Part shown: positions 51,188 to 64,000 of the stretch, piece after piece
Numbering within the stretch: position 1 is the stretch's first letter
Layout of the letters: the number at the start of each line of letters is the position of its first letter
Assembly: GCF_019801965.1 (NCBI RefSeq)
Contig: NZ_JAHVIA010000005.1
Location: 1-64,000 of the forward strand
Length of the DNA stretch: 64,000 nt
Source: Salipiger bermudensis
GTDB lineage: Bacteria > Pseudomonadota > Alphaproteobacteria > Rhodobacterales > Rhodobacteraceae
Direction of reading: 5' to 3'
The notes under the pieces: generated by a model
The model's input: only the letters and a program-made list of their open reading frames with translations
What the model was told of the DNA's origin: nothing
The model's database searches: none
Translations under genes and position numbers: made by a program

Positions 51188-51284
51188 CGCCCGCGTCCCC
51201 CCCGCACCACACCCGCCGGTAAACCGCCCGGAGAGCGCGCCGCCACGATTGCGTGGCGCGCCGTCCCGCGCCACTCTCCGCGCC

Positions 51285-53192
51285 ATGAGCAGGACCGACC
51301 GCAGCGACGACACCGAGACCGGGACAGCCCCCGGAGCCGCAACCGGGGCAGACAGCAAAGCCGTGCCCCCGGTCGACGCCAAAACCGACGCCGAGACCAC
51401 GGCCCCGAGCGGGGCCGAGCCCGAGAGCACGTCCGAGAGCGGCAGCGACAGGCGCCCCACATGGCCCGGCGGCATCGATGCCGTGCTGACCCAGATGGAG
51501 GGCCGGCGCGATGCAATCACCTATGCCGAGGGCGAGGCCCCGCCGCCCGCCGATCTCGATCTCGCGCCGCTGGCCCTGCAGATCGTCGGCAACCCCGAGG
51601 ACGATCCCGCCGAGGATCGCCCCTTCCGCTCCAGCTATCACCGCAAGCGCTTCGACCTGCGCCGCGAGTTGCAGGGCCAGAGCGAGCTGGTCTTCCTCAA
51701 CGGGCTGCTCATTGCCCACCTGCGCAAGCGCGAGTTCCCCGCTCACCTGCCCGAACTCTTTCACAGGCTCTGGGCCGAACAGGGCGCGCACCTGCTCGAA
51801 AATCTCGACCAACGCTGGCTGGTCTCCGCCATCACCACCTTCGGCGATCACGGCCTCACCGCCACCCAGCGCTCGGTGGGTCTGGCGCTGACCGTGCTCT
51901 TCGGCACCATGAAGCTCTACGAATCCGAGCGGCTCTATTCCGGTCAGCCCGCCGACCGCCCCTTCGCGCTCGACCGCAAGGCCGGCGGCCGGCTGCCGCT
52001 CGAGATGGATGCCTACTCGATCGTCAATGGCGGGCTCGACGTCAACATGATCGGGCGGCTCTGGATGGAGGCCGAGGCCGACCCGGTGATCCGGCCCCTC
52101 GCCCATCACCTGCTTGATCTACTGATCCACGACGACCGGACGCTGTTTCGCCGTCTGATGACCATGCGCAGCCGCAAGGCCCGTCAGACGCAGGCCGCCG
52201 AGCCCGCCAAGCGCCCCGGCAACCCGGCGCCCGTCCCTGCCGCGGCGGCCACGCTGACGGCCGATACCCTGCGCTGGGGGCTGGTCTCGACGATCCGCGC
52301 GCCGCTGCCCGTCATCGCGCGTTTCGCCGCGCATCACCTCGCCCTCGGCGCCCACGCGCTGCATATCTATCTCGACGCCCCCGAGCCCGAGACCGCCGCC
52401 TTCCTCTCCCGCCACCCGAAGATCCACGTCACAAGCTGCGACGCGGCGTGGTGGCGGGACACCGGCAAGGAGCGGCCAGAAGCCCACCAGCTGCGCCAGG
52501 CCCACAACGCCACCCGCACCCTGCGCGAAACGGGCGGCAGCCTCGACTGGCTCGGCCATATCGATGCCGACGAATTCCTGCTCCCCGACAAGCCGATCTG
52601 CGAGATCCTCGCCGCCGTCTCGCGCGGCCACGCGCTGGCCCGGGTCGCCCCCGCCGAGGCGCTGGCAGTCAATGAGGGCTGGCCGCAGCACTTCAAGCGC
52701 ACCCATCACCATGCCGGGCGCAAGAAGGCGGTGCTGCAGGAGATCTACCCGACCTTCGGGCTGCATCTCTATGGCGGCTTCCTCAGCCACACCTCGGGCA
52801 AGGTCTTCGCCCGCACCGGCATCCCCGAGACCCGGCTCGGCATCCACACGCTGAAATACCGCGGCGAGGATGCCAGCAACCGCGCCAAGCTCGAGGGCAT
52901 CCACCTCGCCCACCTGCACGCCCCGAGCTGGGATCACTTCCGCGATCACCTCGCCTTCCGGCGCACCCAGGGCTCCTACCGGGCGCGCTCGGAGCGGTCC
53001 GAGATGGGCCAGGCCAACCTGATCGCCTTCCTTGCGGAAGAAGAGGGCGCGGACGGGCTCCGGATGCTGTTCGACGAGGTCTGCGCCGATACGCCCGGGC
53101 TGCGCGCCCGCCTCGCCGCCCACGACATGCTGCTGACCCGTGCCTTCGATCCCGACGCGGCGGTGGCCCGCGTCTTCGGGCCGCTGCCATGA
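51285..53192 (+). CDS. Glycosyltransferase family 2-like protein with long N-terminal domain
   Basis: 635 residues. The first 40 residues are a Thr/Asp/Glu-rich disordered tail, followed by a helical domain of unknown type (about 85-300). A GT-A glycosyltransferase domain starts near residue 329 (LVSTIRAP) and has HIDADEFLL near 425, the DxD-type metal site of the family-2 subgroup PF13704. The start ATG 51285 has no good ribosome site, and a longer frame begins at 51249. It overlaps the next gene by 4 bp. It would transfer a sugar to an extracellular polysaccharide or cell-surface glycan; acceptor unknown. Confidence 0.85.
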   Translation: MSRTDRSDDTETGTAPGAATGADSKAVPPVDAKTDAETTAPSGAEPESTSESGSDRRPTWPGGIDAVLTQMEGRRDAITYAEGEAPPPADLDLAPLALQIVGNPEDDPAEDRPFRSSYHRKRFDLRRELQGQSELVFLNGLLIAHLRKREFPAHLPELFHRLWAEQGAHLLENLDQRWLVSAITTFGDHGLTATQRSVGLALTVLFGTMKLYESERLYSGQPADRPFALDRKAGGRLPLEMDAYSIVNGGLDVNMIGRLWMEAEADPVIRPLAHHLLDLLIHDDRTLFRRLMTMRSRKARQTQAAEPAKRPGNPAPVPAAAATLTADTLRWGLVSTIRAPLPVIARFAAHHLALGAHALHIYLDAPEPETAAFLSRHPKIHVTSCDAAWWRDTGKERPEAHQLRQAHNATRTLRETGGSLDWLGHIDADEFLLPDKPICEILAAVSRGHALARVAPAEALAVNEGWPQHFKRTHHHAGRKKAVLQEIYPTFGLHLYGGFLSHTSGKVFARTGIPETRLGIHTLKYRGEDASNRAKLEGIHLAHLHAPSWDHFRDHLAFRRTQGSYRARSERSEMGQANLIAFLAEEEGADGLRMLFDEVCADTPGLRARLAAHDMLLTRAFDPDAAVARVFGPLP

Positions 53193-54124
53193 CCCGCTGG
53201 GGCACGGTCACCACCACCAACGCATCGCTTCCCGAGATCCTCGATTTCGCCGCCTGGCATATCGAGCTCGGCGCGCACCGGCTCTATCTCTATCTCGACG
53301 ACGACTCGCCTGAGGCGGAGGAGAGGCTCGCCGCCCACCCCAAGATCCGGGTCTTCCGCACCGATGACGCCTGGTGGGCCAAGCGCAACGGGCGGCCGAA
53401 GAAGCATCAGGTCCGGCAAGGCGCCAACGCGCGCCACGCCAACAACCGCAAGCCGGAGGTCGACTGGCTCGCCCATATCGACACCGACGAGTTCCTGCTG
53501 CCCTCCCGGCCGGTCGCCGAGACCCTCGCCGCCCTGCCCGAAAGCTGCCTCTGCGCCCGCGTCCGCCCGGTCGAGGCGCTGGCCCCGCTGGGCGCAGACG
53601 ACGAGACCGCCTTCAAGGCCTTCCCCCTAGACCAGACCCAACGGCAGCAGGCGGCGGAAGCCTGCTTTCCCACCTGGGGCGCGCATCTCTCGGGCGGATT
53701 CCTGAGCCATGTCGCCGGCAAGCTGTTCTTCCGCGCCGGCACCAAGGGCCTCAAGATCCGCATCCACAATGTCGAGCTCGACGGCCAGACCAATCCCGGC
53801 CAGGTCGAGCTGACCAGCCTCGAGCTCGGCCATTTCCACGCCGCCGACTGGCAGCATTTCCTGCGCCTCTACCGCTTCCGCCTGGCGCAGGGCTCCTACC
53901 GCGCCGAGCTCAAGCCGCAGACCCGCGGCGAAGGCGCGGTCAACCTCCATACGCTCTTCGCGATGATCGAAGACGCGGGCGGCGAGGATGCGCTGCGGTT
54001 GTTCTACGACGAGGTCTGCACCGCCCGGCCCGCCCTGCTCGAGCAGCTCTCGCAGCGCGGCCTGCTGCGCCGCCACCGCATGGAACTCGCCGCCCTGCGC
54101 CAGCGGCATTTCCCCGGCATATGA
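53189..54124 (+). CDS. Glycosyltransferase family 2-like protein
   Basis: 311 residues, almost a stand-alone version of the C-terminal domain of the preceding gene: shared blocks include AAWHIELGAHRLYLYLD versus AAHHLALGAHALHIYLD, HIDTDEFLLP near residue 97 versus HIDADEFLLP, and GGFLSHVAGKLFFR versus GGFLSHTSGKVFAR. The pair therefore looks like a tandem duplication in which one copy carries an extra N-terminal domain. ATGA overlap shows coupled translation. Confidence 0.88.
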   Translation: MTRWGTVTTTNASLPEILDFAAWHIELGAHRLYLYLDDDSPEAEERLAAHPKIRVFRTDDAWWAKRNGRPKKHQVRQGANARHANNRKPEVDWLAHIDTDEFLLPSRPVAETLAALPESCLCARVRPVEALAPLGADDETAFKAFPLDQTQRQQAAEACFPTWGAHLSGGFLSHVAGKLFFRAGTKGLKIRIHNVELDGQTNPGQVELTSLELGHFHAADWQHFLRLYRFRLAQGSYRAELKPQTRGEGAVNLHTLFAMIEDAGGEDALRLFYDEVCTARPALLEQLSQRGLLRRHRMELAALRQRHFPGI

Positions 54125-54377: not shown

Positions 54378-55889
54378 ATGACAAAGTTTTCTGATCTCAA
54401 CCTGAACCCCAAGGTTCTCAAGGCCATCGAAGAAGCGGGCTACGAGACGCCGACGCCGATCCAGGCGGGCGCCATCCCCCACGCTCTCGAGGGCAAGGAC
54501 GTTCTCGGCATCGCCCAGACCGGCACCGGCAAGACCGCCAGCTTCACGCTGCCGATGATCACCGCGCTGGCCCGGGGCCGCGCCCGCGCCCGAATGCCGC
54601 GCAGCCTCGTGCTCTGCCCGACGCGCGAACTGGCCGCCCAGGTCGCCGAGAACTTCGACACCTACGCCAAATACGTGAAGCTCACCAAGGCGCTGCTGAT
54701 CGGCGGCGTGAGCTTCAAGGAACAGGAACAGCTCATCGACAAGGGCGTCGACGTGCTGATCGCCACCCCCGGCCGCCTGCTCGACCATTTCGAGCGCGGC
54801 AAGCTGATCCTCACCGACGTGAAAGTCATGGTGGTGGACGAGGCCGACCGGATGCTCGACATGGGCTTCATCCCGGATATCGAGCGCATCTTCTCGCTCA
54901 CGCCCTTCACCCGCCAGACGCTGTTCTTCTCGGCCACCATGGCCCCCGAGATCGAGCGCATCACCAACACCTTCCTGTCGAACCCCGAGCGCATCGAGGT
55001 GGCCCGTCAGGCCACCGCGTCCGAGACCATCGAGCAGGGTGCCGTGTTCTTCAAGGCGTCGCGCCGAGACCGCGAGGGCAGCGAGAAGCGCAAGGTTCTG
55101 CGCACGCTGATCGACCGCGAGGGTGAGAAGTGCACCAACGCCATCGTCTTCTGCAACCGCAAGGTCGATGTCGACATCGTCGCCAAGTCGCTGAAGAAAT
55201 ACGGCTACAACGCCGAGCCGATCCACGGTGACCTCGACCAGTCGCAGCGCATGCGCACCCTCGACGGCTTCCGCGACGGCTCGATCCGGCTGCTGATCGC
55301 CTCCGACGTGGCGGCCCGCGGCCTCGACGTGCCGAGCGTCAGCCACGTGTTCAACTTCGACGTCCCCGGCCATGCCGAGGATTACGTGCACCGCATCGGC
55401 CGCACCGGTCGTGCCGGGCGCGAGGGCAAGGCCTTCACCATCGTGGTCCCGCGCGACGAGAAGAACTTCGAGGATGTGGAAAAGCTCATCCAGAAGGAGA
55501 TCCCGCGCGTCGAGCTGCCGGGCGTGAAGGCGCCCGAGGCGTCCGACGCCGCGGCCGACGAAGAGAAGACCGAGGCCAAGCCGAAGCGCACCCGCTCGCG
55601 CTCGCGCAAGTCCGACAAGAGCGCCGCACCGGCCGAGACCGCCGTGGCAGAGGCCCCCGCGACCGAGGCTCCGGTCGAGACGGCCGCGCCCGAAAAAGCT
55701 GAATCGGAAAAGGTCAGCTCCGAAAAGAGCGCATCGGACAAGAACGACGGCAACAAGGGTCGCTCCGACCGTGGCCGTTCGGATCGCGGCCGTGGCCGTG
55801 GCTCCAAGTCCGACAACAACGTGGTGGGCATGGGCGATCACATGCCCGAGTTCATCGCGCTGAGCTTCGACGAGCGCCGCGCCAGCTGA
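54378..55889 (+). CDS. DEAD-box RNA helicase, RhlE-like
   Basis: 503 residues. All core motifs are present: Q motif (TPTPIQ), Walker A AQTGTGKT near 48, PTREL, DEAD near 154, SAT near 186, and HRIGRTGRAGR near 338. From about residue 385 the tail is low-complexity (Glu/Ala/Lys, then RSDRGR repeats), a probable RNA-binding disordered tail. The core is of the RhlE type. It unwinds RNA duplexes and is expected to help ribosome assembly or decay in the cold. A rho-independent terminator follows. Confidence 0.95.
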   Translation: MTKFSDLNLNPKVLKAIEEAGYETPTPIQAGAIPHALEGKDVLGIAQTGTGKTASFTLPMITALARGRARARMPRSLVLCPTRELAAQVAENFDTYAKYVKLTKALLIGGVSFKEQEQLIDKGVDVLIATPGRLLDHFERGKLILTDVKVMVVDEADRMLDMGFIPDIERIFSLTPFTRQTLFFSATMAPEIERITNTFLSNPERIEVARQATASETIEQGAVFFKASRRDREGSEKRKVLRTLIDREGEKCTNAIVFCNRKVDVDIVAKSLKKYGYNAEPIHGDLDQSQRMRTLDGFRDGSIRLLIASDVAARGLDVPSVSHVFNFDVPGHAEDYVHRIGRTGRAGREGKAFTIVVPRDEKNFEDVEKLIQKEIPRVELPGVKAPEASDAAADEEKTEAKPKRTRSRSRKSDKSAAPAETAVAEAPATEAPVETAAPEKAESEKVSSEKSASDKNDGNKGRSDRGRSDRGRGRGSKSDNNVVGMGDHMPEFIALSFDERRAS

Positions 55890-56164: not shown

Positions 56165-56196
56165 ACAAGAAAAAGGCGGACCACACGGCCCGCCTT
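56165..56196 (-). terminator. Terminator of the ABC-transporter operon
   Basis: On the minus strand AAGGCGGGCC-GTGT-GGTCCGCCTT (56173-56196, one wobble) is followed by TTTTTCTTG. It lies 28 bp after the ATPase gene stop and ends the eight-gene operon. Confidence 0.88.
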
Positions 56197-56223
56197 TCCA
56201 GTCTCCCAACCTGCGCCCCGCAC

Positions 56224-57306
56224 TCAGTCGCGCAGCACCGCCATGCTGCTCTCGTCCCAGCCGATCCAGACCGGGGCCTCGCCCACCGACTGGCCGGTAT
56301 CGGCGTCGACATAGGCCTTGAGCGTGGCGCCATTGGCCTCCTCGACCATCAGGTCGAGCGCCATGCGGCTGCCGAGGAAGGTCTTGCCGACCACCCTGCC
56401 CTGCACCGCGTTGGCGGTCGCCGGGCGCTCGGCGTGGAAGCCCAGCCGCTCGAGCCGCACCGAGGCGGTGATCGACTCGCCAGCCTGCGGCACGCCACCC
56501 GGGGCGTGGCCGCGGAGCGTCGTGCCGAACCAGTCCATCACCACCGCGTTGCCGTCGGTGCCGCGCAGCTCGCCGGTGAGCAGGTTGGTCTCGCCGATGA
56601 ACTCGGCCACGAAGCGCGAGGCCGGGTGGAAATAGAGCTCTTCCGGCGTGCCGTCCTGCTCGACCTTGCCCTTGTTCATGACAACGATGCGGTCCGACAT
56701 GGTCAGCGCCTCTTCCTGGTCGTGGGTGACGAAGAAGAAGGTCTTGTTGGTGCGGCGCTGAATCGATTTCAGCTCCTGCTGCACCTGACCGCGCAGCTTG
56801 GCGTCGAGCGCGCCCAGCGGCTCGTCGAGCAGCAGGAGCGCCGGGTCTGGCGCCAGCGCGCGGGCCAGCGCCACGCGCTGCCTCTGGCCACCCGAGAGTT
56901 GCGCCGGGTAGCGGTCGCCATAGGCGGTGAGCTCGAGGAAGGACATGATCTCGTCCTGCCGCCTGGCGATCTCGGACTTGCCCATGCCCTTGAGCTCGAG
57001 CCCGAAGCCGATGTTCTGGCGCACTGTCATGTGCGGGAACAGCGCGTAGTCCTGAAACACCATGTTGACGTTGCGCTTCTCCGGCGGACGCTTGGTCACG
57101 TCGTCGCCGCGCAGCAGCACGCGGCCGCTCGAGGGCTGCTCGAAGCCGCCCAGGATGCGCAGCGTGGTGGACTTGCCGCAGCCCGACGGGCCGAGGAAGG
57201 TGACGAACTCACCCTGCGCGATGTCGAGCGTCAGGTTGTCGAGCGCCACGGTGTCGCCGAAGCGCTTGGTCACGCCTTCGAGGCGGACGAGAGGATCAGA
57301 AGACAT
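56224..57306 (-). CDS. Polyamine/opine-type ABC transporter ATPase (PotA-like)
   Basis: 360 residues. Walker A GPSGCGKST near 41, FQDYALFPHMTV (Q-loop), signature LSGGQRQRVALARAL near 138, Walker B LLLLDEPLGALD and switch His in VTHDQEEAL. A C-terminal TOBE domain (about 280-355) is typical of the PotA/PotG group. It powers the two permeases encoded 3 bp and further upstream in the same operon. Substrate class by family: polyamines, opines, or other small cationic compounds; the neighbouring enzymes favour an amine or opine-like compound. Confidence 0.93.
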   Translation of the reverse strand: MSSDPLVRLEGVTKRFGDTVALDNLTLDIAQGEFVTFLGPSGCGKSTTLRILGGFEQPSSGRVLLRGDDVTKRPPEKRNVNMVFQDYALFPHMTVRQNIGFGLELKGMGKSEIARRQDEIMSFLELTAYGDRYPAQLSGGQRQRVALARALAPDPALLLLDEPLGALDAKLRGQVQQELKSIQRRTNKTFFFVTHDQEEALTMSDRIVVMNKGKVEQDGTPEELYFHPASRFVAEFIGETNLLTGELRGTDGNAVVMDWFGTTLRGHAPGGVPQAGESITASVRLERLGFHAERPATANAVQGRVVGKTFLGSRMALDLMVEEANGATLKAYVDADTGQSVGEAPVWIGWDESSMAVLRD

Positions 57307-57309
57307 GGC

Positions 57310-58095
57310 TCAGCTATCCTTGTTCATGCGGCGGGTGAAACGCTCGGCCCAGACGCCGATCACGGCGGTCAGGACAAGCGCCACGGTCGCGATGGCGTTG
57401 ATCTCGGGCGACATGCCCGATTTCAGCTTGGCGAAGATCAGCACCGGCAGGGTCGGCTCGTAGCCGCCGAGGAAGAACGAGCGCACGAAATCGTCGAAGC
57501 TGAGAAGAAGGCAGAAGATGCTCGCGCCCATGATGGCCGGCACGAGATAGGGGAAGGTGATGCGCAGGAAGGCGATCAGCGGGTCGGCGCCGAGGTCGCG
57601 GGCGGCCTCGATCTGGCTCTTCGGCAGGGTCGAGAGCCGCGCCATCACCACCAGCACCACGAAGGGCACGTTGTGCACCGCGTGGCTCCAGACGATGGCG
57701 CCCATGCCCGGCTCGATGCCGAGATAGCGGGCATAGATCCGGAAGGCGATGGCCGAGATGATGCCCGGGATCAGCGCCGGCAGCACGGTCATCCCGAAGA
57801 TCACCGCCCGGCCCCAGAACTTGCGCCCCTCGAGCAGCACCGCGATCCAGGTCCCGACGATCACCGAGATCACCGTCGAGAGCACCGCGATGGCGACCGA
57901 GTAGCCGAAGGCGGCGAGCGTCTCGGTGTCGGCGAAGACGCCAGTGTACCAGTCGAGCGTCCAGGACTTGATCGGGAAGCCGATGAACTTGCTGTCCTTG
58001 AAGCCCATCATCACCATCAGGATCAGCGGCACGAAGACATAGGCCACGAAGGCCCAGTAGACGCAGGAGAGCAGGATGCGGTTGTGACGGGTCAT
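57310..58095 (-). CDS. ABC transporter permease (PotC-like)
   Basis: 261 residues, six helices, with the coupling EAA-type loop AARDLGADPLIAFLRITFP near residue 165. FDDFVRSFFLGG is characteristic of PotC-like permeases. The start at 58095 has GGGAG upstream and overlaps the preceding permease stop (ATGA); longer frames extend into that gene. It pairs with the other permease to form the channel. Confidence 0.93.
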   Translation of the reverse strand: MTRHNRILLSCVYWAFVAYVFVPLILMVMMGFKDSKFIGFPIKSWTLDWYTGVFADTETLAAFGYSVAIAVLSTVISVIVGTWIAVLLEGRKFWGRAVIFGMTVLPALIPGIISAIAFRIYARYLGIEPGMGAIVWSHAVHNVPFVVLVVMARLSTLPKSQIEAARDLGADPLIAFLRITFPYLVPAIMGASIFCLLLSFDDFVRSFFLGGYEPTLPVLIFAKLKSGMSPEINAIATVALVLTAVIGVWAERFTRRMNKDS

Positions 58096-59078
58096 TTGGT
58101 GTCTCCCTTGCGCAGGGCGTTCATCAGCCGCTGGAACGCGGCGGTGATGAGCAGCGCCGCGAGGAACATGATGACGGCGAAGGCCGCGCCCGTGGGCCAC
58201 TGGTCACCGGCGACGTGGAAGAAGCCCGCGATGGTCTCGGCAAAGACGGTGGTCGAGGGCCCGCCCAGCAGCACCGGGGTGGCGTAAAAGCCGGTCGAAA
58301 TCAGGAACACGAGCGTGCAGCCCGAAGAGATCCCCTCGAGGGTCATCGGCAGGGTGATGCGGCGGAACCGCGTCCAGGCGCCCGCGCCGAGATCGGCGGC
58401 GGCCTCGTTCATCGACTTGGGCAGCTTCTCGAGCGCCGAGTAGAGCGGCAGCAGCATGTAGAGGGCGGTCAGGTAGACGATGCCCACCCCCATGGAAAAG
58501 CTCGTGTACATGAACGGGATCGGCCGGTCGATCAGGCCGAAGAAACGCAGCACCATGTTCACCGCGCCGGTATTGCCGAGCAGGATCATGATGGCATAGG
58601 TCCGCACGATCTCGCCGACCCAGAACGGGATCAGCAGCAGCAGGAGCAGCAGCATCCGGTTCTTCGGGCTGACGTGGCGGGCCAGGAAATAGGCCACCGG
58701 GTAGGTGATGATCAGGGTGCAGAAGGTAAATACCCCGGCAAAGATCAGCGTCCGGAAGAACGGCATCCAGAAGATGCTGTCGCCGAAGAAGCTGAGGTAG
58801 TTGTCGAAGGTGAAATGCTGCTCGACGCCGGGCGCGACCGGGTAGGCATCGGTCAGCGACACGCGCAGCATCTGCAGCATCGGCCCGAGGTGCTGGGTCA
58901 GCACCCACAGGATCGGGAACACGGCGAGGATGAGGAACTGGCGGCGCGGCGAGGCGGTGGCGAAGGTTGCAAGCCACTGGTACGGCGCCCAGCTCGACAG
59001 GCGTCCCCAGAAGGTGCGGTCGGAGGCGCTCTCCGCGACGGCCCCGCGTTCTTCGCGCGCGGATGCGTCATAGGTCAT
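58092..59078 (-). CDS. ABC transporter permease (PotB-like)
   Basis: 328 residues: a hydrophilic N-terminus of about 45 residues, a first helix, then six more helices with loop NEAAADLGAGAWTRFRRITLP near residue 225 (EAA motif). WVGEIVRTYA is a PotB signature. AAGGAAG lies ahead of ATG 59078; upstream in-frame starts lack a site. The gene ends with a 4-bp overlap to the PotC-like gene. Confidence 0.93.
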   Translation of the reverse strand: MTYDASAREERGAVAESASDRTFWGRLSSWAPYQWLATFATASPRRQFLILAVFPILWVLTQHLGPMLQMLRVSLTDAYPVAPGVEQHFTFDNYLSFFGDSIFWMPFFRTLIFAGVFTFCTLIITYPVAYFLARHVSPKNRMLLLLLLLIPFWVGEIVRTYAIMILLGNTGAVNMVLRFFGLIDRPIPFMYTSFSMGVGIVYLTALYMLLPLYSALEKLPKSMNEAAADLGAGAWTRFRRITLPMTLEGISSGCTLVFLISTGFYATPVLLGGPSTTVFAETIAGFFHVAGDQWPTGAAFAVIMFLAALLITAAFQRLMNALRKGDTK

Positions 59079-59121
59079 TGGGTCTTCCTTTCGAGAGGAA
59101 CGACGGCGGGTCGTGTGAGGG

Positions 59122-59157
59122 GCCCGCCCGCCGGGCGCTCTGGCGCGGCGGACGGGC
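59122..59157 (-). terminator. Stem-loop between binding-protein and permease genes
   Basis: GCCCGCCCGCCG (59122-59133) pairs with CGGCGGACGGGC (59146-59157), one wobble, 12-nt loop, no T-run. Lying after the binding-protein gene, it probably stabilises that part of the mRNA and reduces permease expression, like the stem-loop in the TAXI operon at 9284-9310. Confidence 0.6.
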
Positions 59158-59176
59158 AATCAGGCGCGGCGCGCGT

Positions 59177-60283
59177 TTACGCGGCCTTGATGGCTTCCAC
59201 GGCCGGATCGACGAGGCCGTATTTCATCTCGTTCGCCTCGGCGCGGAAGAACTGCAGATTGGCGAGCTGCTCGTCCGGGAAGGAGGTCGATTTCTTCTCG
59301 AGGTCGGTCAGGTAGTTCGACGCGTCCTTGTAGGTCGAGATGAAGCCCGAGGCCTTGGTCATCGCGGCACCGATCTCGGGCGACGCGAGGATCGCGTTGA
59401 GGAAGGTGTAGGCGTTGTCCGGGTTCGGGCAGTTCTTGGCGATGTTGTAGGTGTAGACGAAGCCGTAGGAGCCTTCCTTCGGGATCGACATGCCAAGCGG
59501 GAAGCCGTCATTGATCAGGGCCGCCGCCGGGCCGTTCCACGAATGGCCGATGACGATGTCCTGGTTGACCATCATCTGCTGGAACTCGGCGCCGCCGTCA
59601 TAGTACTTGCGCACCAGCGGCTTCTTCTCAATCAGGAACTGCTTGGCTTCCTCGACGATCGCCGCGGCCTTCTCGGGGTCGTCCATGTAGGCGACCATGT
59701 TGCCGTCATAGCCCATCTTCAGCATGATGATCGACATCATGTCCTGGATGATATAGGCGGTCTGGCCCGAGTATTTCTCGCTGAAGAGCGTGTCCCAGGT
59801 CTCGGCCTCTTCCGGCGAGACGTAGTCGGTGTTGTAGGCCAGAACCTCCATGCCCGACAGGATCGGGGCGCCCCACTTCTCGCCGTTGATCGTCGACCAG
59901 TCGGATTCCGAGAAGGTCGGGTTGATGTTGCCCCAGTTGCTCAGACGGTCGGTGTCGAGCGGCGCAAGCAGGTCGCTGTCGATGAACTGCAGGAAGCGGT
60001 GGCCGGCCACGGTCATGATGTCCACAGACGGGTTCGGCGCCTCGGCAGCCAGCAGGTTGAACTGCTTGCCCTGGTCGTCGACGAGGCGGACGTTGACCTT
60101 GATGCCGGTCTCGGCCTCGAACTGCTCCTTGAACGCTTCCGGGACGAAATCGTTATAGGTCCAGATGTTGACCTCGCCGCCCTGCGCGTGGGCACGGCGC
60201 AGGTAGGCGGGGCTGGCAAGCGCGGCGCCGGTCATGGCCGCGGTGTTGAGGAATTTCCGGCGGTTGAGAATGAGCTTTGTCAT
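59177..60283 (-). CDS. ABC transporter substrate-binding protein (PotD-like), Tat-exported
   Basis: 368 residues. The N-terminus LNRRKFLNTAAMTGAALA holds a twin-arginine motif (RRKFL) and signal peptide, with likely cleavage near AHA (residue 33). WTYNDFVPEAFKEQFEAETG shows the start of the PotD/extracellular solute-binding fold. Ribosome site AGGGAG. It binds the imported compound in the periplasm. Polyamine-binding proteins of this family use acidic and aromatic residues in the cleft; the ligand cannot be deduced. It follows the enzyme genes by 41 bp. Confidence 0.92.
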   Translation of the reverse strand: MTKLILNRRKFLNTAAMTGAALASPAYLRRAHAQGGEVNIWTYNDFVPEAFKEQFEAETGIKVNVRLVDDQGKQFNLLAAEAPNPSVDIMTVAGHRFLQFIDSDLLAPLDTDRLSNWGNINPTFSESDWSTINGEKWGAPILSGMEVLAYNTDYVSPEEAETWDTLFSEKYSGQTAYIIQDMMSIIMLKMGYDGNMVAYMDDPEKAAAIVEEAKQFLIEKKPLVRKYYDGGAEFQQMMVNQDIVIGHSWNGPAAALINDGFPLGMSIPKEGSYGFVYTYNIAKNCPNPDNAYTFLNAILASPEIGAAMTKASGFISTYKDASNYLTDLEKKSTSFPDEQLANLQFFRAEANEMKYGLVDPAVEAIKAA

Positions 60284-60324
60284 GGTCGTCTCCCTGAGGG
60301 TTGGTATCCGTATCGTTTTTATGG

Positions 60325-61425
60325 TCAGGACGCCGGTTCCGGCGTCTTCCGCAGAAGGCCGGTACGGGCGGCCTGCCGCAGATCGTCGAGGCTGTAGCCG
60401 TCAAGCTCCAGCGCGTTGAGCAATTCGTTCTCGGCGGCGAAATCGCGGCCATACATGGCCGAGAAGATCTTGATCCCCGCCTCGTGCAGCTCGGCGGGTT
60501 TGCCCACCAGCCGGCCCAGAACGGCCGTGAGCTGCAGGCCGTAGGGCACGTCTTCGGTGACATAGCGGCTGTCGGCCGTCGCAGGCCCGGTGCCGCCATT
60601 GCCCTGCGCGTGCATCTGCTGGTTCATCTCCGAGATCGTCGAGATCGGCACGTGGAAGCTCTGGCTGAAATGCTCGAAGATGGTCTTGGTCTGCAGCCCC
60701 AGCGCCGCCACGATCTCGAGCCGCTCGGCATCCAGCGCCTCGAGCAGCGCGCCCACCTTGGGCGTGACATTCTGGCCCTGGCTCCAGCTCTCGCCGCGCT
60801 CCATGCGGGTGATGTTGCCAAGCGCGATGCCCAAGTGGTTCTGCGGGTTGAGGTTCGATAGCGAGATCGCCAGCAGCCCGTCGCGCGGCACGAAGACATC
60901 GCCGAAGAGCCGGGTGCAGACCGCCAGCGCGCAATCCGAACGGGTCTCGGGCACGGTGCAGAGATCGACCTTCTTGCGGACGGTGTTGACCTTGACGCTC
61001 GCCCCCTCGCCGCGCCGCCCGGTCACCACGGTGGTGCCCCAGGCGGTGATCGCCGCATCAACGCCGCGCTCGGCGAGTTTCTGCATCAGGTAGACCGCGC
61101 CCAGCGAGGCGTGGCTGCTGATGATGACGTGCTGACCATCGCGGATATGCGGCGCCAGCGCGTCGAACACAGCCTTGTGGCCATAACCCGGCAGCGCGAT
61201 CAGGATGGCGTCGTTCTGCTCTGCCAGCTCCTGCGCCGATCCGGCGATGCGCGGGGCAAACACCGTCTCGACGGCCCCGCTGGCCTCGAGCGGGCCGTCC
61301 TCGAGCGCCTTGGTGGACGCGCCCGAGGGCGACCACAGCATCGGCTCGTGGCCGTTCTGGTGCAGCAGCGCGGCGCTGCCGAAGGCGATGGAGCCGGCGC
61401 CGGCGATCCCGACCTTGGAGCTCAT
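60325..61425 (-). CDS. NAD(P)-dependent octopine/nopaline dehydrogenase-family enzyme
   Basis: 366 residues. Rossmann motif GAGSIAFGSAAL near residue 9, then a C-terminal helical domain (about 180-330) with NPQNHLGIALGNITRMERGE (pieces NPQNHLG, GNITRMERG), which matches the octopine/nopaline dehydrogenase domain whose His is catalytic. The family catalyses the reversible reduction of a 2-oxo acid with an amine (opine synthesis or breakdown). The start overlaps the preceding gene (4 bp). Together with the importer, it suggests the operon breaks down an opine- or N-alkyl amino acid-like compound. Confidence 0.9.
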   Translation of the reverse strand: MSSKVGIAGAGSIAFGSAALLHQNGHEPMLWSPSGASTKALEDGPLEASGAVETVFAPRIAGSAQELAEQNDAILIALPGYGHKAVFDALAPHIRDGQHVIISSHASLGAVYLMQKLAERGVDAAITAWGTTVVTGRRGEGASVKVNTVRKKVDLCTVPETRSDCALAVCTRLFGDVFVPRDGLLAISLSNLNPQNHLGIALGNITRMERGESWSQGQNVTPKVGALLEALDAERLEIVAALGLQTKTIFEHFSQSFHVPISTISEMNQQMHAQGNGGTGPATADSRYVTEDVPYGLQLTAVLGRLVGKPAELHEAGIKIFSAMYGRDFAAENELLNALELDGYSLDDLRQAARTGLLRKTPEPAS

Positions 61426-62009
61426 GCCGGCACCTCCTCGCGCACCGGATCGCCCAGCACGTGCATCAGCCGGTTGGCCCAGCCGAAGAGCGCGGTCGAC
61501 AGGATCAGGTCGAGGATCTCCTCGTCGTTGAGGCCGGCCTCGCGCAGCGTGGCCATGTCGGCCTCATCGGCCGCGACCGGGCTTTCCGAGAGCTTGCGCG
61601 CGAAGTCGAAAATCGCGCGATTGCGTGGGCTTAGATCCGCCTTCTCACCCTTCGCGAAAAGCTCGTCGGTAACGCTCGTGTCCTTCTCGAGCTTGGCGTG
61701 ACGGTCGGCATGGACGGCGGCGCAATAGATGCAGCGGTTGACCATGCTGGCGCCGATCGCCCCGAGCTCACGCTCGGCGCGCGACATGCCGCCCGGGTCG
61801 TACATGATCGCGTTGAACAGCGGCGAGCGCACCTTGAGGCTCTCCACGTCATGCGCCAGCGTCAGCACATAGGCCGAGACCTTGGTGTTCGACGGCGTCA
61901 CCGAGAGCGCGTCGAGCTGCTCCTCGGTGGCCTCCTGCAGGTCGACCGGCGTCACGCGCGGCTGCCATTGCGGGACGGTGCGGGTGAACTTGTGAACGAT
62001 GCGGCTCAT
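61422..62009 (-). CDS. AhpD/CMD-fold peroxidase-related protein
   Basis: 195 residues of the carboxymuconolactone-decarboxylase fold. The AhpD-type redox motif is CIYCAAVHADRH near residue 92 (CxxC followed by His), so thiol-based peroxidase activity is possible. It looks like the Avi_7169-type peroxidase-related subgroup as I recall it. The ATGA overlaps on both sides show tight coupling with the octopine-type and CMD genes. It may remove peroxide formed by the flavin monooxygenase. Confidence 0.85.
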   Translation of the reverse strand: MSRIVHKFTRTVPQWQPRVTPVDLQEATEEQLDALSVTPSNTKVSAYVLTLAHDVESLKVRSPLFNAIMYDPGGMSRAERELGAIGASMVNRCIYCAAVHADRHAKLEKDTSVTDELFAKGEKADLSPRNRAIFDFARKLSESPVAADEADMATLREAGLNDEEILDLILSTALFGWANRLMHVLGDPVREEVPA

Positions 62010-62488
62010 GCGGCGGCCCCTTTCATCAGGCGCAGCCCGGCGACCACGCGCAGCTGGTAGGCCACGAAGGCCACCAGCTCGCAGAGGCGCACGATATCGG
62101 CGTCATCGACGCCCGCGGCCTGCAGCTTGGAGATGTCTTCGGCGAGGATATCACGGGTGTGGTTCGCCGCCTTGTCGGCGAAGGCCACCACATGCGCGAG
62201 ACCCTCTTCCTCGCCGTCCTGCGAGGGATCGGCCAGACCGGCCATGTCGCCCGCGCCCGCGAGGTAGCGCTCGGCGAGATCGTTCTCGCCCGCCTCGTTG
62301 GCGATCCGCGCCGCCAGCGCCGCGCGCAGCGCGTGCGGGAAAGCGCCCGCATCCTTCGGCGTCAGGACGGCGTCCTCGGCGGCCTGCGTGGCCTCGATGA
62401 TGTTGGCGCGGGTCTCTGCCGCAGCGCCCGGGGCGCTGCCCGCGGTGATGCCCGCGGCGCTCAGTGTCGTGGTGTCGAAGATGGTCAT
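62006..62488 (-). CDS. CMD-domain protein without the CxxC pair
   Basis: 160 residues, starting MTIFDTTTLSAAGI with a ribosome site inside the preceding gene. It keeps the helical CMD-like pattern (FPHALRAALAARIANEAG, LCELVAFVAYQLRVVAGL in pieces) but has only one cysteine (VRLCELV). It fits the Avi_7170-type partner of the AhpD-like gene that follows. The two are probably a paired unit; the cysteine-poor member may be structural. Confidence 0.8.
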   Translation of the reverse strand: MTIFDTTTLSAAGITAGSAPGAAAETRANIIEATQAAEDAVLTPKDAGAFPHALRAALAARIANEAGENDLAERYLAGAGDMAGLADPSQDGEEEGLAHVVAFADKAANHTRDILAEDISKLQAAGVDDADIVRLCELVAFVAYQLRVVAGLRLMKGAAA

Positions 62489-63948
62489 GCCACCTGCCCT
62501 TCCTTTGCCGGTGTCAGTTCGCTCGGCTGCCATTCGCTGCCGTCGAGCTCAGGCGTTTCATAGTCCAGCATCGCCTGCCAGTGGGTTTCCAGATCCTCGG
62601 CATAGAGCGTGGCCGCCATGGCCTTGGCCAGCCAGGCCGCGCCCTCCGAGACGCCGGGGATGTCGCCGCTCACCTTGCCGAGGCTGGCGGAGGCCCCGTA
62701 GTTGAAGCAATAGACCTTGCTGAGCCACGGCACCTCGCCCGGCACCTTCTCGCGGAAGGTGAAATCGGGGTTGAGATAGGGGAAGCGGCCGAGATCGGCC
62801 TGCTTCTCGTCCTCGGGCGGGGTGTAGACGTCTTCCCAGAGCAGGATCTTGCCCGCCACCTCGCCAAACTCGGTGCGCGCCATCGGGTCGATGGTGAAGC
62901 CGGTGCCGAGGATGACGAAGTCGGCAACGTAGGAGGTGCCGTCGGCAAACATCACCTCGACCTCGTCGCCGCGCTCCTCGATGCGGGTGGTGGCCTTGCC
63001 GAAGTGGAAATAAGCGTTCGGATGGCGGCTCACCCGCAGGGTCGAGCCATGCGGCGGCGGCGTCTGGGTGGTGAAGCTGTATTGCATGAAGCGCCAGCGC
63101 CATTCGTCGGGCAGTTCGGAGAAGCCGGCGGTGAAGCCGTAGCTGCCGATGCCCATCATCTTGTTGATCGTCGGCATCTCCTTGCGCCGGATCAGGTGGC
63201 GGACCTCGCCCGCGCCGTGCTCGAGCGCCTCGGCGGCGTTGTCGACCGCCGACGCGCCAACGCCGATCACCGCCACGCGCTTGCCCTTGAGGGCGTCGAA
63301 ATCGATCTCGTCGGCGCTGTGCGCCCAGAAGCGGCGCGGCAGATCCTTGATGAAGCCCGGGATGTTGGGCCCGCCGGTGCCGTCACGGCCCGTGGCAAAG
63401 ACCAGCTTGCGGGTCAGGATCGTGCCCTCCGCCGCGCCCGACACGGTGAGCCGCAGCAGATCGCCCTCGGGCTCGACCTTGTCGACCGAGACGCCGTTTT
63501 CCACCGGCACGTTCAGTGCCTTGCGATACCAGCGCAGGTACTCCATCCACATCGGCCGCGGGATCTTGTCCATCGCCTCCCAGGCCTCGCGGCCGTGCTG
63601 GGCGCGATACCACGCCTGGAAGGTCAGCGCGCCGTGGCCGAAAGCCGGGCCGGTCAGCGTCTTGGGCGAGCGCAGTGTCTCCATGCGGGCATAGTTGAGC
63701 CACGGCCCCTCGAGCCCCGCCGGGTTGCGGTCGAGCACGCGGATGTTCTGCACGCCGCCGGTGGTCAGGCCGAGCCAGGCCACCATGCCGCACATGCCGC
63801 CGCCGATGATCACGACATCGCTCACGCCCTCCTGCGCCGGCACCCAGTCCTTGCCGGGGTAACACAGGAATTCGAGATCCTCGCGGAGACGGGCTTCCAG
63901 CACATCCAGGCCCTGAGCGTCGATCGGAGAGCGGTCATTCGTTTGCAT
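62485..63948 (-). CDS. FAD/NAD(P)H-dependent monooxygenase
   Basis: 487 residues from ATG 63948, which has AGGA 8 bp upstream; an ATG 9 bp further up overlaps that site and is less likely. FAD motif IIGGGMCGM near 48-55 and NAD(P) motif VIGVGASAVDNAAEAL near 228 are the two Rossmann loops of class B flavin monooxygenases, and ILGTGF(T) is the late ATG-like motif. The FxGxxxHxxxW fingerprint is only partly preserved (LPRRFWAHSAD). It would insert oxygen into an amine or carbonyl substrate. It is the first gene of the eight-gene operon. Its regulator is outside the window. Confidence 0.88.
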   Translation of the reverse strand: MQTNDRSPIDAQGLDVLEARLREDLEFLCYPGKDWVPAQEGVSDVVIIGGGMCGMVAWLGLTTGGVQNIRVLDRNPAGLEGPWLNYARMETLRSPKTLTGPAFGHGALTFQAWYRAQHGREAWEAMDKIPRPMWMEYLRWYRKALNVPVENGVSVDKVEPEGDLLRLTVSGAAEGTILTRKLVFATGRDGTGGPNIPGFIKDLPRRFWAHSADEIDFDALKGKRVAVIGVGASAVDNAAEALEHGAGEVRHLIRRKEMPTINKMMGIGSYGFTAGFSELPDEWRWRFMQYSFTTQTPPPHGSTLRVSRHPNAYFHFGKATTRIEERGDEVEVMFADGTSYVADFVILGTGFTIDPMARTEFGEVAGKILLWEDVYTPPEDEKQADLGRFPYLNPDFTFREKVPGEVPWLSKVYCFNYGASASLGKVSGDIPGVSEGAAWLAKAMAATLYAEDLETHWQAMLDYETPELDGSEWQPSELTPAKEGQVA

Positions 63949-64000
63949 ACGAATCATCCTAGTAGAAAAAGGTGTTTCGGTTCAGCATCAATTCGGCGTT
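63949..64000 (-). promoter_or_regulatory. Leader and probable promoter end of the eight-gene operon
   Basis: The last 52 bases hold the AGGA ribosome site and an A/T-rich stretch (TTTTTCTACTAGG on the minus strand), with TTGATG about 17 bp further up as a weak -35. The promoter and any regulator sites may extend beyond the window. Confidence 0.35.

Follow-up and report, generated by a model that had tools for sequence, protein, structure and literature searches.

A ten-gene operon of Salipiger bermudensis combines an octopine/nopaline-family dehydrogenase, a flavin monooxygenase, two CMD/AhpD proteins and a Pot-like importer: a possible route for opine-like amino acids

Introduction

The closest described relatives of the system studied here are the noc and occ operons of Ti plasmids and a gene cluster of S. 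meliloti. For opine catabolism, a passage of PMC4575208 describes flavin opine dehydrogenases, followed by arginase and ornithine cyclodeaminase steps once the opine has been cleaved. For S. meliloti, an excerpt of PMC3596328 reports that the eight genes SMb20278-SMb20285 are up in a glnD mutant and that a glnB glnK mutant represses them when nitrogen is limiting, and calls them a putative polyamine system homologous to potFHIG, while an excerpt of PMC3484140 places SMb20284 among the transport proteins with a possible part in polyamine uptake, which were quantified in an Hfq study. Here, we analysed a stretch of 64,000 nucleotides from Salipiger bermudensis (contig NZ_JAHVIA010000005.1, positions 1 to 64,000; the window), which carries an operon joining an octopine/nopaline-type dehydrogenase (ODH), a flavin monooxygenase (FMO) and two CMD/AhpD proteins (CMD1 and CMD2) to an ATP-binding cassette (ABC) importer with its binding protein (SBP). 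The parts are of known kinds, and no paper assigning a function to the combination was found in the open-licence literature, subscription papers lying outside the search. Our preferred reading, held tentatively and with a little less than even confidence, is that the operon serves the import and oxidative breakdown of a small opine-like compound, an N-substituted amino acid whose amino acid part is most likely of the cysteine or threonine type, as a source of carbon, nitrogen or sulfur. Homarine or trigonelline catabolism, our first guess, was dropped after the literature search returned no fitting operon.

Results

The operon comprises ten genes

A preliminary description of this DNA, made from its letters alone, had proposed a unit of eight genes. 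Translation and hidden Markov model (HMM) scans confirmed eight genes on the minus strand at 56224-63957 and gave their family assignments. The window edge lies 43 bp upstream of FMO and the operon continues beyond it, into genes for a major facilitator superfamily (MFS) transporter and a pyridoxal-phosphate (PLP) enzyme:

56171..56198, minus strand: intrinsic-terminator-like hairpin 3′ of the ATPase gene (folding)
56224..57306, minus strand: ATP, PotA/PhnT-type ABC ATPase with a TOBE domain (HMM)
57310..58095, minus strand: PER2, PotC-type permease (PotC model 163 bits, cut-off 326; 4-bp overlap with PER1)
58092..59078, minus strand: PER1, PotB-type permease (PotB model 181 bits, cut-off 348)
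59177..60283, minus strand: SBP, predicted Tat-type exported binding protein with PotD fold, 368 aa (HMM and model)
60325..61425, minus strand: ODH, octopine/nopaline-family NAD(P) dehydrogenase, 366 aa (4-bp overlap with CMD2)
61422..62009, minus strand: CMD2, peroxidase-related AhpD protein with CxxC-x3-H, 195 aa (4-bp overlap with CMD1)
62006..62488, minus strand: CMD1, CMD/AhpD-fold protein without CxxC, 160 aa (4-bp overlap with FMO)
62485..63957, minus strand: FMO, NAD(P)/FAD-dependent monooxygenase, 490 aa (HMM, motifs, Foldseek)
63988..64000, minus strand: 3′ end of the MFS transporter gene, an upstream operon member that runs to 65325
65322-66782, beyond the window, upstream of the MFS gene: class V PLP enzyme gene (own genome)
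66896-67357, beyond the window, divergent from the operon: Lrp gene (own genome)

Because the MFS and PLP-enzyme genes continue the unit past the window edge, this is one operon of ten genes rather than eight, with five 4-bp overlaps. The MFS and PLP-enzyme genes overlap by 4 bp, and gaps of 30, 41 and 98 bp separate MFS from FMO, ODH from SBP and SBP from the permease genes, respectively. Layout and co-conservation agree with the single unit first proposed. Its four 4-bp overlaps exist within the window, but only three of them are consecutive (FMO/CMD1/CMD2/ODH) and the fourth joins the two permease genes. The terminator described as clear does show a 12-bp stem and a U-run at 56171-56198; the 76 bases folded reached -31 kcal/mol with z = -1.6, 16 of 200 shuffles folded at least as well, and the hairpin was not among the sites listed by a consensus terminator scan. 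A sigma-70 scan returned 0 sites.

The genes are conserved together

Sixty-nine loci (numbered with the prefix L) were gathered by a scan with ODH, so that the sample is anchored on this gene, and a gene was counted as present at no less than 34% identity, at least half the length and E <= 1e-10. All eight genes were found in 61 of the 69 loci, an association that exceeds chance. The preliminary description had made its pathway idea depend on synteny across Rhodobacterales and Rhizobiales, and the genes are indeed conserved together there. Five of the eight exceptions were cut by contig ends (L060, L067, L068, L075 and L100) and one was a short contig beginning inside the cluster (L089); in L097 CMD1, detected earlier, fell under the stricter threshold, and in L074 FMO, CMD1 and CMD2 were absent from the 21 kb examined. 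L092 was counted as complete, though its FMO lies on the opposite strand. In an independent draw of 295 genomes from the family, ODH reached at least 57% identity in 14 and FMO at least 67% in 13, and all 13 genomes with a close FMO were among the 14 with ODH, the two genes lying about 1.1 kb apart. The system is patchily distributed: of 61 relatives, 20 had an ODH match at E 0.001, with at least 61% identity in 16, and at E 1e-50 ODH was found in 5 of 385 genomes of the class, own genome included. The nearest named genome among the loci, Salipiger bermudensis HTCC2601, has an ODH that is 98% identical.

The organisation around this core differs by lineage, according to our own grouping. Among the 44 Rhodobacterales-type loci (L034-L075, L099 and L101), Lrp was present in 35 and the PLP enzyme and MFS transporter in 36 each; the other 25 loci had an XRE/cupin gene in 14 and a MATE transporter in 11. 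The order in L076-L088 is ABC-FMO-CMD1-CMD2-XRE/cupin-ODH, followed in nine loci by KBL and in six by TDH, the enzymes taking threonine to glycine; L082, L083 and L086 stop just past ODH and L100 is a fragment. In nine loci (L090, L091, L093-L098 and L102), a racemase-ABC-FMO-HCCA isomerase-CMD1-CMD2-MATE series runs divergently from ODH and Lrp, and plasmid records place related sets with LysR on A. fabrum pAt and S. meliloti pSymB.

Beside the operon in the window lie two adjacent similar frames, glycosyltransferase-like by eye (51249-54124), and a DEAD-box-helicase-like frame (54378-55889); the same order of neighbours occurs in L034.

The dehydrogenase belongs to the opine family and the monooxygenase resembles N-hydroxylases

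ODH matched PF02317, the C-terminal helical domain, with 119.4 bits (cut-off 30), and the only solved relative found was 1bg6 (E 8.9e-32). Its H197, R287 and D292, at the His, Arg and Asp positions that we take to be catalytic in 1bg6, were kept in 74 of 74 rows. Judged by these features, ODH is a true octopine/nopaline-family enzyme, as had been proposed. A paralogue with 48% identity lies in the noc region of pTiC58, relatives in noc or NoxA/NoxB contexts have 43-50% identity, NoxA/NoxB-like flavoproteins adjoin ODH relatives in L154, L155 and L168, and a similar ODH/Nox-type set is present in A. vitis (L110) by record annotation. The opine-like reading is favoured because the catalytic residues of ODH are kept and its relatives stand in these contexts. 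Other partners of ODH were a PAAT importer with an XRE gene (L111) and an aminotransferase with an FAD oxidoreductase (L167), while in L166 no partner was recognised. In pTiC58 (L109, 14950-16032), the paralogue is placed between arginase and ornithine cyclodeaminase genes, near NoxA/NoxB-type genes.

FMO matched Pyr_redox_3 with 68 bits (Pfam cut-off 30) and Lys_Orn_oxgnase with 40 bits (cut-off 21.3), and both dinucleotide motifs were invariant in 27 rows. The best Foldseek matches of its model were lysine, ornithine and putrescine N-hydroxylases (E ~1e-16, TM ~0.6), with cadaverine as well as putrescine N-hydroxylases among the fold matches, a resemblance that suggests an N-oxygenase-like enzyme. 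CMD1 scored 72 bits with TIGR04029, below the cut-off of 100.75, and CxxC was present in 1 of 70 orthologues. CMD2 scored 204 bits with TIGR01926 (cut-off 81.8) and its C93, C96 and H100 were kept in 72 of 72 rows. Since CxxC and His are kept in CMD2 and CxxC is almost absent from CMD1, the two look like one active and one supporting protein; the peroxidase-like character first ascribed to both holds for CMD2 with its CxxC-His, but not for CMD1, in which 69 of 70 sequences are without CxxC.

We compared 16 of the 17 FMO contexts outside the own genome plus seven further genomes, three more distant places being left out. The FMO-CMD1-CMD2 set was found without ODH beside an amino-acid importer (L113 and L114), beside a dipeptide-type importer, so assigned by eye (L137 and L171), or with no importer (L138 and L140); in L112, L139 and L175 CMD2 was matched and CMD1 was not. 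Two further loci, L136 with an FMO relative and L162 with an ODH relative, have in common an importer that by eye is of the dipeptide type, and their M24 peptidases are related, as if both enzymes served the same import route. A membrane-dipeptidase-like gene (by eye) lies near distant FMO relatives in L173 (7468-8487) and L175 (8246-9235).

The opine-synthase-type fold of ODH and the N-hydroxylase-like FMO would also suit biosynthesis or detoxification, in which ODH would condense an amino acid with an oxo acid, FMO would N-hydroxylate, and a metallophore-like product would be exported by MFS and recovered by the ABC importer; the exporter genes would fit as well, MFS being present in 36 of the 44 Rhodobacterales-type loci and MATE in 11 of the 25 others. 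However, no metallophore synthase or outer-membrane receptor is found among the ten genes, the neighbours are amino-acid-degrading enzymes and the regulators are of Lrp, LysR or XRE/cupin types, and we regard this explanation as improbable.

The importer has a Pot-like fold with a replaced amine clamp

The Tat export foreseen for SBP agrees with its Tat motif, R8 and R9 being kept in at least 90% of 31 rows. SBP matched PF13416 with 104 bits (cut-off 27), and its model (pLDDT 87.8) has PotD and PotF as nearest folds. The label of a polyamine-type importer first given to the system thus fits the fold, but the amine-binding residues of PotD are lost. Among the positions that we take to be amine contacts in PotD (D168, E171, W229, W255, D257 and Y85), D168 aligns with a gap, and all 31 rows have Y277 for D257, F275 for W255 and H for Y85; W229 and E171 have the counterparts W249 and D181. 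None of the four transporter proteins reached its Pot NCBIfam equivalog cut-off (PotA 365 of 482 bits, PotB 181 of 348, PotC 163 of 326 and PotD 70 of 582), though the ATPase came just under that of the broader potA subfamily (348 of 355.6 bits). On this sequence comparison the label 'polyamine importer' appears unsafe, because the amine-clamp residues of PotD are replaced in SBP.

Uptake of an actual polyamine or diamine, which would then be N-oxygenated and broken down oxidatively, would draw on the PotD/PotF folds and on the putrescine and cadaverine N-hydroxylases among the fold matches of FMO, and the cluster of S. meliloti is termed a putative polyamine system and potFHIG homologue in an excerpt of PMC3596328. 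Against it stand the changes at D257 and W255, the gap at D168 and the scores below the equivalog cut-offs, on which it was set aside as the main explanation; we consider it quite unlikely.

Enzymes of cysteine-desulfurating type adjoin the monooxygenase and CMD genes

The PLP enzyme is SufS-like and lies near the FMO and CMD genes in 36 of the 44 Rhodobacterales-type loci. Of its 43 PDB matches, nearly all bear the name cysteine desulfurase, and the PLP lysine and both cysteines of RGGCACA were kept in 36 of 36 rows, the second cysteine aligning with the desulfurase cysteine. Its relatives adjoin a distant FMO in L169 and L170 and lie about 4 kb from one in L175; in L114, the genes beside such a relative include one for a TauE/SafE exporter and one for a persulfide-dioxygenase-like MBL protein (538 bits, cut-off 625). 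The Geminicoccus loci L089 and L092 have a Cds1-like cysteine desulfhydrase upstream of CMD1, and L171 has a Cds1-like relative that comes after CMD1, CMD2 and a gene of the Rid family. Because two unrelated desulfurating-type enzymes hold similar places, these gene contexts suggest that cysteine or a close analogue may arise in the pathway.

The same neighbours would serve organosulfur scavenging, in which a cysteine in S-substituted or cyclised form (such as a thiazolidine-type adduct) would be imported, FMO would act as an S-oxygenase that starts cleavage, CMD2 would handle the sulfenic or thiol product, the PLP enzyme would release sulfide and ODH would be needed only for the C-N bond of the adduct. 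The SufS-like and Cds1-like enzymes beside FMO/CMD genes in several contexts, the sulfur-related proteins of L114 and the TauE/SafE gene adjoining ODH in S. meliloti (L105) are in line with this. However, the fold of FMO is nearest to N-hydroxylases, ODH adjoins threonine and not sulfur enzymes in Rhizobiales, and the S. meliloti cluster responds to nitrogen-regulation mutants, as stated in an excerpt of PMC3596328. This explanation is doubtful in our judgement.

Threonine enzymes adjoin the dehydrogenase

Three unrelated kinds of threonine-degrading enzyme adjoin ODH, in different loci. Medium-chain TDH and KBL lie beside it in L076-L078, L080, L085 and L088, the L076 proteins scoring above curated cut-offs, and beyond Lrp in eight Rhodobacterales-type loci and L135. 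An SDR-type TDH with KBL is found beside ODH in L108, with PDB threonine dehydrogenases matching at E ~1e-151, and a threonine ammonia-lyase in L161 (623 bits, cut-off 496). KBL and TDH were both present in 14 of the 69 loci and KBL alone in three more. TDH was present in 11 of the 14 family genomes with ODH at no less than 57% identity; among the ten with a listed TDH place (G711 is not listed), it lay within 15 kb of ODH in six and far away or on another contig in four. A selection of 23 genomes comprised 17 with ODH, eight of which had TDH, and six without ODH, none of which had TDH. That unrelated threonine enzymes adjoin ODH and cysteine enzymes adjoin FMO and the CMDs underlies the cysteine- or threonine-type part of our reading.

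In the own genome, KBL/TDH are separated from ODH by 13 kb that hold other genes; they belong to a set with an XRE/cupin regulator outside the window at 74460-77413 (L103, 12460-15413). At E 1e-60 the genome has no threonine dehydrogenase other than this one, and clusters similar to the set adjoin the operon in several other genera.

Discussion

From gene content, operon structure, conservation, catalytic residues, the clamp replacement seen by alignment and recurrent neighbours, we infer a substrate, an order of steps and every reaction of a possible route. The Tat-exported SBP and the PotABC-type transporter would import the opine-like compound, and ODH would oxidise its C-N bond with NAD(P)+ to give an amino acid and an oxo acid. 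The N-oxygenase-like FMO would oxygenate either the product or a form that is no substrate of ODH, and CMD2, through its CxxC and paired with CMD1, would reduce or remove an oxidised or peroxide by-product. The freed amino acid would be desulfurated by the PLP enzyme, while KBL/TDH, where they follow ODH, would convert threonine to glycine; the MFS transporter may export a surplus or toxic intermediate and Lrp may sense an amino acid.

Uptake and dismantling of an opine-like amino acid are supported because the polyamine clamp is replaced and because close FMO and ODH were paired within 1.2 kb in 13 of 13 family genomes. Several points weigh against this reading. The hints at cysteine and those at threonine were seen in different lineages and do not have to refer to a single compound. 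The PLP enzyme reached 106 of 475 bits for the SufS model TIGR01979, far under the cut-off, and the Cds1-like proteins 543 (L089) and 571 (L171) bits, below the cut-off of 600. TDH is present in 158 of 295 family genomes, so its presence says little and was rejected as a weak marker of the pathway; only adjacency to ODH counts as evidence because TDH is so common in the family. In L084 the sequence extends beyond ODH and holds no KBL/TDH there. The pocket mapping of SBP depends on one pairwise alignment at ~20% identity and on the residues taken as contacts in PotD, so it is suggestive and not proof, and the FMO model is of moderate quality (pLDDT 74.4). No NoxA/NoxB-type flavin opine oxidase is found among the ten operon genes. 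L074 and L108 are ODH loci without FMO and CMDs, and FMO relatives with no ODH or CMDs in reach occur at 44-53% identity (L136, L141, L169, L170 and L172-L174) and at 36-42% (L142-L150); because distant FMOs occur without these partners, the chemistry linking the modules is uncertain.

A wider proposal, which we put forward as speculative and rather unlikely, is that an alphaproteobacterial pathway of marine and plant-associated bacteria uses an N-oxygenase and a CMD pair with an opine-type dehydrogenase to free cysteine or threonine from the adducts that amino acids form with carbonyl compounds, whether opine-like or cyclic (thiazolidine/oxazolidine-type), as a third route beside flavin opine oxidases and NAD-linked dehydrogenases alone. 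If the opine-like reading is true, an unassigned pathway for modified amino acids exists in a number of marine and root-associated Alphaproteobacteria, and one copy of it has already been published as a putative polyamine uptake system. The binding protein, the dehydrogenase and the monooxygenase, together with a few candidate substrates, offer ready targets for tests, S. meliloti being a laboratory organism with a copy, and attention is drawn to the dehydrogenase gene in the classical nopaline region of pTiC58.

Comparison with known systems

ODH shares its family and the catalytic His, Arg and Asp with N-(1-D-carboxyethyl)-L-norvaline dehydrogenase (1bg6), but is distant from it. Pairs of the TIGR04029/TIGR04030 kind accompany luciferase-like monooxygenases and peptide importers; like Avi_7170/Avi_7169, CMD1 and CMD2 are adjacent and one resembles each model, although both remain below the cut-offs (72 of 100.75 and 155 of 233.15). 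The importer shares component types and folds with PotABCD/PotFGHI, but stays below the equivalog cut-offs and has the amine clamp replaced. The S. meliloti locus, which we equated with SMb20278-SMb20285 by gene content, likewise has four ABC genes, FMO, CMD1 and CMD2; it differs in having LysR instead of Lrp, a divergent ODH and neither PLP enzyme nor MFS in the unit. Finally, the noc and occ operons of Ti plasmids also place an ABC importer near an octopine/nopaline-family dehydrogenase and amino-acid-degrading enzymes, whereas noc combines an importer of the amino-acid type with NoxA/NoxB-type flavoproteins where the Salipiger operon has a Pot-type importer, FMO and two CMDs.

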